Positions 7,635 through 8,175 of a stretch of 64,000 nucleotides of DNA are shown here, in pieces. Numbering within the stretch: the first letter of the stretch is position 1; each line of letters opens with the position of its first letter. A program made the translations under genes and the position numbers. The DNA comes from Candidatus Avelusimicrobium vaccinum (GTDB taxonomy: Bacteria; Elusimicrobiota; Elusimicrobia; Elusimicrobiales; Elusimicrobiaceae): assembly GCA_902794895.1 (NCBI GenBank), contig CADBIY010000001.1, forward strand, positions 1 through 64,000, read 5' to 3'. The notes beneath the pieces were generated by a model. That model searched no databases, was not told where the DNA came from, and worked only from the letters and a program-made list of their open reading frames with translations.

Positions 7635-7664
7635 TTGAATCGTAAAATAGTTATTTGATACAAT
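7635..7664 (+). promoter_or_regulatory. Promoter of the structured RNA / small-protein unit
   Basis: TTGAAT (7635-7640), an 18-base spacer and TACAAT (7659-7664) form a good housekeeping-type promoter. Predicted transcription start is near 7671, about 244 bases before the start codon at 7915. Confidence 0.6.
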
Positions 7665-7670
7665 GCTTCT

Positions 7671-7885
7671 GTTAGTTTAACTGTTTTTGGAACCGTATGT
7701 GGAATACGGGGCACTTTTGGATACTCAAAAGTTCTACTCAAGTCCAAGAACAGCCGATATAAGCACAGCATGCACAATCTGATCCATTGGGCATGCTGGG
7801 CTGAATGTCTGCCGCTTTGCGCGGCAGACTACGGCTGTTGCTATGAAGGCCTTGAGTAGACTTTATAGTGTCAGCCGTTTTTGTT
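7671..7885 (+). ncRNA. Structured RNA with mutually exclusive terminator: candidate riboswitch/attenuator or free sRNA
   Basis: This holds most of the 341-bp gap between the TerC gene and the small gene at 7915. Hairpins seen: 7693-7698 with 7704-7709 (6 bp) and 7713-7719 with 7726-7732 (7 bp). Helix P1 pairs 7733-7742 with 7851-7860 (10 bp). Helix P2 pairs 7749-7756 with 7832-7839 (8 bp). Arms inside P2 are 7766-7773 with 7791-7798 (8 bp) and 7807-7815 with 7821-7829 (9 bp). The alternative is 7831-7837 with 7872-7878, extended by 7841-7848 with 7861-7868, followed by T5 (7878-7882): an intrinsic terminator. P2 and the terminator share 7832-7837, so only one can form. The P1 3' strand becomes the terminator loop. 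No known riboswitch consensus was recognised. A 6S-like sRNA of about 215 nt is the main alternative. Confidence 0.6.
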
Positions 7886-7914
7886 GGCCGCCGCGGTTCC
7901 TGAAGGAGGAAAAT

Positions 7915-8175
7915 ATGAATCAACGCCGGCGGCTGCTTGCCGTAGATCCGAAACAGCAAAAAATATTGCGCGATTTAGCCCGGATGGATGCCTGGGTACT
8001 CGCTTGTTTGGATATACTGGAGCAACAACATCTTACTTGTGCCGATACAAGTCCGTTATATAAGAGTTTAAAACAAGTCCGCTTTGAAATTTACCGGGCC
8101 GGGTGTGAAGTATTGGGAGTGGAATATGCCTTGGATAGGTACCCGGATAACAAGGAAAAACAAAAACCCCGCTAA
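7915..8175 (+). CDS. Hypothetical 86-residue protein
   Basis: I do not recognise a family. The ATG at 7915 is chosen over an in-frame ATG at 7843 because gaaggagg sits 5-12 bases upstream and 7843 lies inside the RNA fold. The protein starts MNQRRRLLAVDPKQQ, is largely helical and soluble, has three Cys (near residues 35, 42 and 64) and a basic tail. No signal peptide or membrane segment is seen. Its long structured leader suggests controlled expression. The stop lies within the terminator hairpin shared with tRNA-Thr. Confidence 0.6.
   Translation: MNQRRRLLAVDPKQQKILRDLARMDAWVLACLDILEQQHLTCADTSPLYKSLKQVRFEIYRAGCEVLGVEYALDRYPDNKEKQKPR

Follow-up and report, generated by a model that had tools for sequence, protein, structure and literature searches.

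The first 64,000 nucleotides (forward strand) of contig CADBIY010000001.1 of Candidatus Avelusimicrobium vaccinum (assembly GCA_902794895.1), hereafter the window, hold one copy of a multi-copy RNA element that rumen and gut Elusimicrobiota carry in one to more than 100 copies each. Comparison of the copies indicates that the element is probably a cis-acting transcription attenuator that switches by toehold strand displacement, with a private toehold in each copy limiting cross-talk. A preliminary description of the locus had recognized two exclusive folds, one of them a terminator, in a 215-nt RNA and suggested a transcriptional riboswitch or attenuator or, alternatively, a divergent 6S RNA. 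It did not notice a 5' helix (a:a*), the multi-copy nature of the element, its locus-specific barcode, the palindromic P4 loop, or a strand beyond the terminator (about 7893–7900).

An uncatalogued RNA family of rumen and gut Elusimicrobiota

A BLAST search with the element revealed other copies in its own genome and matches in 37 of the 101 genomes searched, its own included. Searching a named genome collection with a 19-base pattern yielded 71 stretches, and almost all of them came from assemblies of rumen or gut Elusimicrobiota; one that was labelled Alphaproteobacteria, L061, failed to match the family's covariance model. This model, R1, was built from 60 copies and does not include the barcode helix. 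It identified 16 credible copies in the genome of the window (two further rows were antisense or partial) and 133, 53, 46, 21, and 13 matches in five congeners, where matches were not individually checked. Among 341 Elusimicrobiota genomes, 93 from two families had R1 matches. They include the majority of the genomes in the window's genus, every one of the 18 listed for genus g15, and 13 from a second family, f21. R1 did not find the element in genus g12 of this set; one of its members, G118 (1.6 Mb in one contig), belongs to the same family as the window and is without the element.

The RNA family is uncatalogued, as Rfam 15 contains no matching family: searches at gathering and permissive E-values with the window and eight further loci bearing divergent copies returned only unrelated or chance matches. 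The preliminary description had likewise recognized no known riboswitch class. Phage, plasmid, and viral collections contained no match to the element, and titles and abstracts of open-licence papers on Elusimicrobia pilins, riboswitches, and conserved upstream elements did not mention it. The proposed relation to 6S RNA is not supported, given the lack of an Rfam match, the tens of copies in many genomes, and the fixed position before genes, since 6S RNA typically occurs in one to few copies and is not a cis leader.

Two divergent copies in the genome of the window (L121 at C4:61577 and L122 at C2:184035) have a distinct P5 region in common, both start with ACTGTTTTTGGTGG, and perhaps represent a subfamily. 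Outside the element, positions 1228–1333 of L212, from an Elusimicrobiota genome, matched STnc490 (RF01405, 64.3 bits, above gathering), possibly a repeat.

Two mutually exclusive folds

All parts of the window copy lie on the forward strand. A promoter-like site can be read at 7635–7664, where the preliminary description had placed it, with TTGAAT (7635–7640) and TACAAT (7659–7664) separated by 18 nt. Comparison of upstream sequences showed a TACAAT-like box 5–7 nt upstream of the element's first strand, a, in most relatives, and a loose −10-like pattern was matched 5' of the element in 159 of 200 copies. The minimum energy of the 215-nt RNA is −88.1 kcal/mol versus −59.0 (sd 4.7) for 200 shuffles, none of which was as low (z −6.25).

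Helix names used here differ from the earlier ones: P1 of the family is a:a*, and P2 is the hairpin 7693–7709 (CCGUAU/AUACGG). The helix formerly called P1 is the barcode helix B:B* (7733–7742/7851–7860), and the former P2 is AACAGCCG/CGGCTGTT (also given as AACAGCCG/CGGCUGUU) with its 3' strand at 7832–7839; both are present. The same applies to the intrinsic terminator at 7831–7878 with T5 at 7878–7882, and its loop does contain B* (7851–7860), as described. The lowest-energy fold of the terminated RNA includes the overlooked 5' helix, in which a at 7681–7691 (CUGUUUUUGGA) pairs with a* at 7743–7753 (UCCAAGAACAG), and it is this helix that the antiterminator excludes.

From 5' to 3', the element comprises strand a (CUGUUUUUGGAACCGUAUG, 7681–7699), which pairs with a* in the OFF state and with strand c* after read-through; hairpins P2 and P3 (7713–7732); barcode B (UCUACUCAAG, 7733–7742), the proposed toehold; strand a* (UCCAAGAACAGCCG, 7743–7756), the partner of a (OFF) or b (ON); hairpins P4 (7762–7802) and P5 (7807–7829); strand b (7831–7850), which forms the 5' arm of the terminator (OFF) or pairs with a* (ON); B*; and strand b* with the U tract (7861–7882; U tract 7878–7882), the 3' arm of the terminator. 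A U-rich tail follows the terminator in 188 of 200 copies.

Covariation was counted in 60 aligned copies, with shuffled and slid alignments as controls. The OFF fold, tested as P1 (a:a*), P2 to P5, the terminator b:b*, and the barcode as a pseudoknot, had 91.6% of cells paired and two-sided changes in 57 of 76 pairs, comprising 685 such cells versus 219 in shuffles. The ON fold, tested as the barcode and a*:b helices around P4 and P5, had 91.2% of cells paired and two-sided changes in 50 of 61 pairs (630 cells versus 195 in shuffles). Both counts were far above the shuffled and slid controls. Among individual hairpins, two-sided changes were found in 4/5 pairs of P2, 7/7 of P3, 17/17 counted pairs of P4, and 9/9 of P5. 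The alignments thus contain, for OFF and ON folds alike, the compensatory changes for which the preliminary description had proposed to look, and they confirm its two exclusive folds. They indicate that four strands swap partners, a:a* and the terminator b:b* making up the OFF state and a*:b the ON state, and that both folds are under selection.

An exclusive terminator and antiterminator, both with comparative support, are one mark of an attenuator. This part of the original proposal is now strongly supported, by covariation in both folds and by a median distance of 42 nt to start codons (200 copies), while the ligand riboswitch part is unproven.

The barcode helix

The barcode, a 10-base segment located between P3 and a*, pairs with an equally long segment of the terminator loop, and the resulting helix adjoins a*:b. 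All nine barcode pairs counted had two-sided changes, and most of them occurred as all four Watson-Crick types (60 copies). In 200 of 200 distinct copies the barcode paired with its own partner over at least 7 bp, usually 10, versus about 5.7 on average with the partners of other copies. Since the barcode helix is outside R1, this pairing was not selected for by the search.

Within a genome, the barcodes were distinct in 47/47, 20/20, and 14/14 sampled copies (81 copies from three genomes). Between genomes, identical barcodes recurred in 41 pairs, versus at most 3 in simulations. In many of these pairs the flanking genes were shared at high identity and the downstream pilin had turned over; other recurrences had no flanking gene in common within the compared DNA. 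Plain drift of the barcode is ruled out by these recurrences, many of them at the same locus. A role as a tag of the downstream gene is not supported either, as pilin tails at loci with the same barcode were often at background identity.

At loci with the same upstream gene, barcodes tended to be either near-identical or wholly different. For example, L025 and L041 represent the same locus and are about 96% identical elsewhere, but 7 of 10 barcode bases differ, with matching changes on the other strand. These patterns suggest that a locus usually keeps its barcode and that the barcode is occasionally replaced as a block. The halves of one barcode (L107, 260–466) mismatch, with an L070-type 5' half and an L045/L158-type 3' half; this copy arose either by natural recombination or by chimeric assembly close to the end of a contig.

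A barcode tied to its locus and not to the gene downstream could also be the target address of a mobile or cassette-like element, in which folded RNA or DNA guides insertion as in bridge-RNA or attC-like systems. The presence or absence of the leader and the 86-residue gene downstream of it as a unit between TerC and tRNA-Thr would fit such an element. We give this explanation hardly any credence, since the promoter, terminator, and coupling to the ribosome site are conserved, no recombinase was found among the predicted downstream genes inspected, and the phage, plasmid, and viral collections contained no match.

Palindromic P4 loops

In 189 of 198 copies the apical loop of P4 included 4 or more consecutive self-complementary bases, versus 76 expected from shuffled loops. 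Palindromes of at least 6 bases occurred in 128 of 198 copies versus 11 expected, and in 23 of 43 distinct loops versus 2.2. The same test revealed no palindrome excess in the loops of P2, P3, and P5. The P4 palindromes include UAAUUA, GAUC, UUAUAA, UCAUGA, UUCGAA, AGCU, GGCC, and UUGCAA, several of them found in both families, and the loop of a single locus can, with its barcode unchanged, switch from one palindrome to another. In the window copy the loop is CUGAUCC (7779–7785) with the palindrome GAUC at 7781–7784, the proposed kissing site. Palindromic covariation of a self-complementary apical loop is one mark of a symmetric kissing-loop dimer; leader RNAs therefore likely pair as kissing dimers via P4, and this contact is possibly the input of the switch, for which it is the best candidate.

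These loops bear on two other explanations of the leader. If the leader were a metabolite riboswitch, its aptamer would be P4 or the P1-P2-P3 junction, and a ligand would stabilize one of the folds. The terminator/antiterminator layout, the strong conservation of GGAACCGUAUG, and the many copies per genome over one regulon are compatible with this, but the conservation is largely explained by strands with several partners, the P2 and P3 loops vary, and no Rfam class was matched. The conserved loop is, unlike an aptamer, a palindrome of many different sequences, and such an unpaired conserved loop favors RNA-RNA pairing over ligand binding. A metabolite riboswitch is thus unlikely. A leader controlled by a homodimeric RNA-binding protein that reads the P4 loop or the P1 region, as in protein-dependent antitermination or termination, would account for the fixed architecture and loop geometry of P4 and for the conserved 5' strand. 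This explanation is quite unlikely, since one protein would not recognize a dozen palindromes of different sequence; no candidate regulator came to light, with no search aimed at one.

A strand beyond the terminator

Downstream of the U tract and ahead of the ribosome site lies strand c*, the complement of a, with a mean duplex energy of −13.1 kcal/mol versus −6.2 for shuffled sequences (146 copies). In the window copy it occupies 7893–7900 (GCGGUUCC, the complement of GGAACCGU in a) and adjoins the ribosome-binding site AAGGAGG (7903–7909). The c* region is also a frequent pairing partner of the ribosome site and start codon; the z-score of this hairpin was below −2 in 79 of 146 copies (for example, L035, L036, and L266).

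The terminated RNA was predicted to be OFF in 136 of 147 copies, and the read-through leader was predicted to be ON in 93 of 147. The latter number fell to 29–34 with shuffled c* and to 14 with a shuffled barcode. In these models, pairing of c* with the freed a tips the predicted fold from OFF to ON. For the read-through leader of the window, the global minimum is an ON-type fold (−102.2), versus −98.4 when OFF is forced.

Downstream genes

The genes following the element were surveyed in 200 copies, weighted towards genomes with many copies, and pilins were recognized by a motif test. Pilin-like genes followed 125 copies, other genes 63, and no clear gene 12. The N_methyl domain was confirmed in two pilins. 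The non-pilin genes encoded lipoproteins, outer-membrane-like proteins, glycosyltransferases, zinc-ribbon proteins, and small proteins. The single target protein assumed at first was accordingly replaced by a large set of genes, mainly pilin-like.

In the window, the downstream gene (7915–8175) encodes an 86-residue protein without a Pfam match. Its small relatives follow the element beside TerC in two congeners, G031 and G038. In at least 10 congeners this place lacks the leader-gene unit, and tRNA-Thr and TldD come directly after TerC.

The terminated leaders, roughly 200 nt long, could also be trans-acting small RNAs for which the downstream gene is less important; the strong terminator in 188 of 200 copies and the ability of palindromic loops to pair in trans would suit this role. 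It is very unlikely, given that the element is linked to the gene downstream through c* and the hairpin at the ribosome site, that leader and gene form one unit at the TerC locus, and that a clear gene follows all but 12 of 200 copies.

Two observations concern the pilins themselves. L088 and L104 have near-identical leaders and flanking genes, and their pilin tails are only 38% identical, so the pilin body appears to turn over faster than its leader. Many pilin open reading frames (L110, at C7:36009 of the window's genome, L080, L094, L096, L051, L052, and others) carry an in-frame insert between the start methionine and the prepilin GFTLIEL site, that is, in the part that would be cleaved off. 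Short dispersed repeats, such as VILNLIQDL...FGMT, SPLEGEDVRRTDEGV, and HAELDSASRCYN, apparently encode these inserts.

Proposed mechanism

The strands, their alternative partners and conservation, the distinct barcodes, and the palindromic loops are read from the sequence, and they suggest the following course of events. P1 (a:a*) would form first, leaving B exposed as a toehold. The emerging B* would capture B, and b would displace a from a* by branch migration, the outcome being set by a race between this displacement and the closing of the terminator by b*. Upon read-through, the freed a could be caught by c*, locking the read-through fold, and in many copies the c*:a pairing would open the hairpin over the ribosome site. 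Since a cell contains tens of copies with near-identical switch strands, each would require a private toehold preventing strand exchange in trans, which would explain why barcodes differ from each other inside a genome but persist at a given locus. Kissing dimers formed by the palindromic P4 loops may bias the switch, and its output would be pilin-like and other, mostly accessory, genes.

Several observations weigh against attenuation by barcoded strand displacement. P1, a*:b, and the terminator base vary little across the aligned copies, so the switch strands hardly covary and their pairing rests on conserved complementarity. We attribute this low variation to the several partners of each strand, since a fits a* and c*, a* fits a and b, and b fits a* and b*; in L116, a divergent copy in the genome of the window, a, a*, and b have changed in coordination. 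The ON fold was predicted for only 63% of read-through copies, by energy models that ignore kinetics and pseudoknots. The position of c* next to the ribosome site makes release of translation doubtful in the window copy, and no clear c* was seen in family f21. Within-genome avoidance of barcode cross-complementarity was not detected, the latter being no lower than chance. Selection for barcode orthogonality is suggested only by uniqueness and block replacement, and random 10-mers would also be distinct.

A more tentative extension, which we consider possible but doubtful, is an RNA-only expression network in which the leaders of many pilin and surface loci sense each other via P4 kissing, leader abundance biases read-through, and the barcodes keep the switches self-acting.

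Comparison with known systems and implications

In synthetic toehold switches (PMC7288988), a unique toehold beside a shared branch-migration domain gives orthogonality. The element would have the same arrangement, but it is natural, intramolecular, and coupled to transcription termination. It also resembles trp-type attenuators, the yxjA purine riboswitch (PMC9756952), and pbuE (PMC7707468), in which terminator and antiterminator share strands and cotranscriptional strand displacement decides the outcome, as proposed here. Unlike them, it has no leader peptide, aptamer, or known ligand; its shared strand is adjoined by a locus-specific barcode of 10 bp, a fifth strand (c*) lies past the terminator, and there are up to 133 copies per genome.

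With regard to dimerization, loop L9.3 of OLE changes from GGCC to GAUC or AGCU, which was used as evidence for symmetric kissing loops (PMC12286853). Such palindrome-to-palindrome changes of an apical loop are common to the element and the homo-oligomeric ornate RNAs OLE, ROOL, and GOLLD (PMC12286853); in contrast to them, the element is an mRNA leader of about 205 nt with a terminator, is multi-copy, and its dimerization is predicted from sequence. The HIV-1 dimerization initiation site, the classical example of symmetric kissing, has a six-base palindrome in a 9-nt hairpin loop, with 2 nt before and 1 nt after it (PMC7357161). The UAAUUA and UUAUAA loops of the element match this geometry, but whereas the HIV-1 site serves dimerization of a viral genome, the element is a family of bacterial leaders with many palindromes, including the 4-base GAUC of the window copy.

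The family has no entry in Rfam and numbers as many as 133 copies in a single genome of 1.7 Mb, which would, in our judgement, rank it among the most expanded bacterial cis-regulatory RNAs. Its P4 loops make a strong comparative case for RNA dimerization in mRNA leaders. The barcodes look like natural toehold barcoding, a possible answer to the avoidance of cross-talk among near-identical RNA switches in one cell. The element would add a layer of control for many pilin-like genes of gut Elusimicrobiota and, if the RNA-only network exists, would enable a cell to choose among its tens of pilin genes, or to ration them, with no need for a protein regulator.
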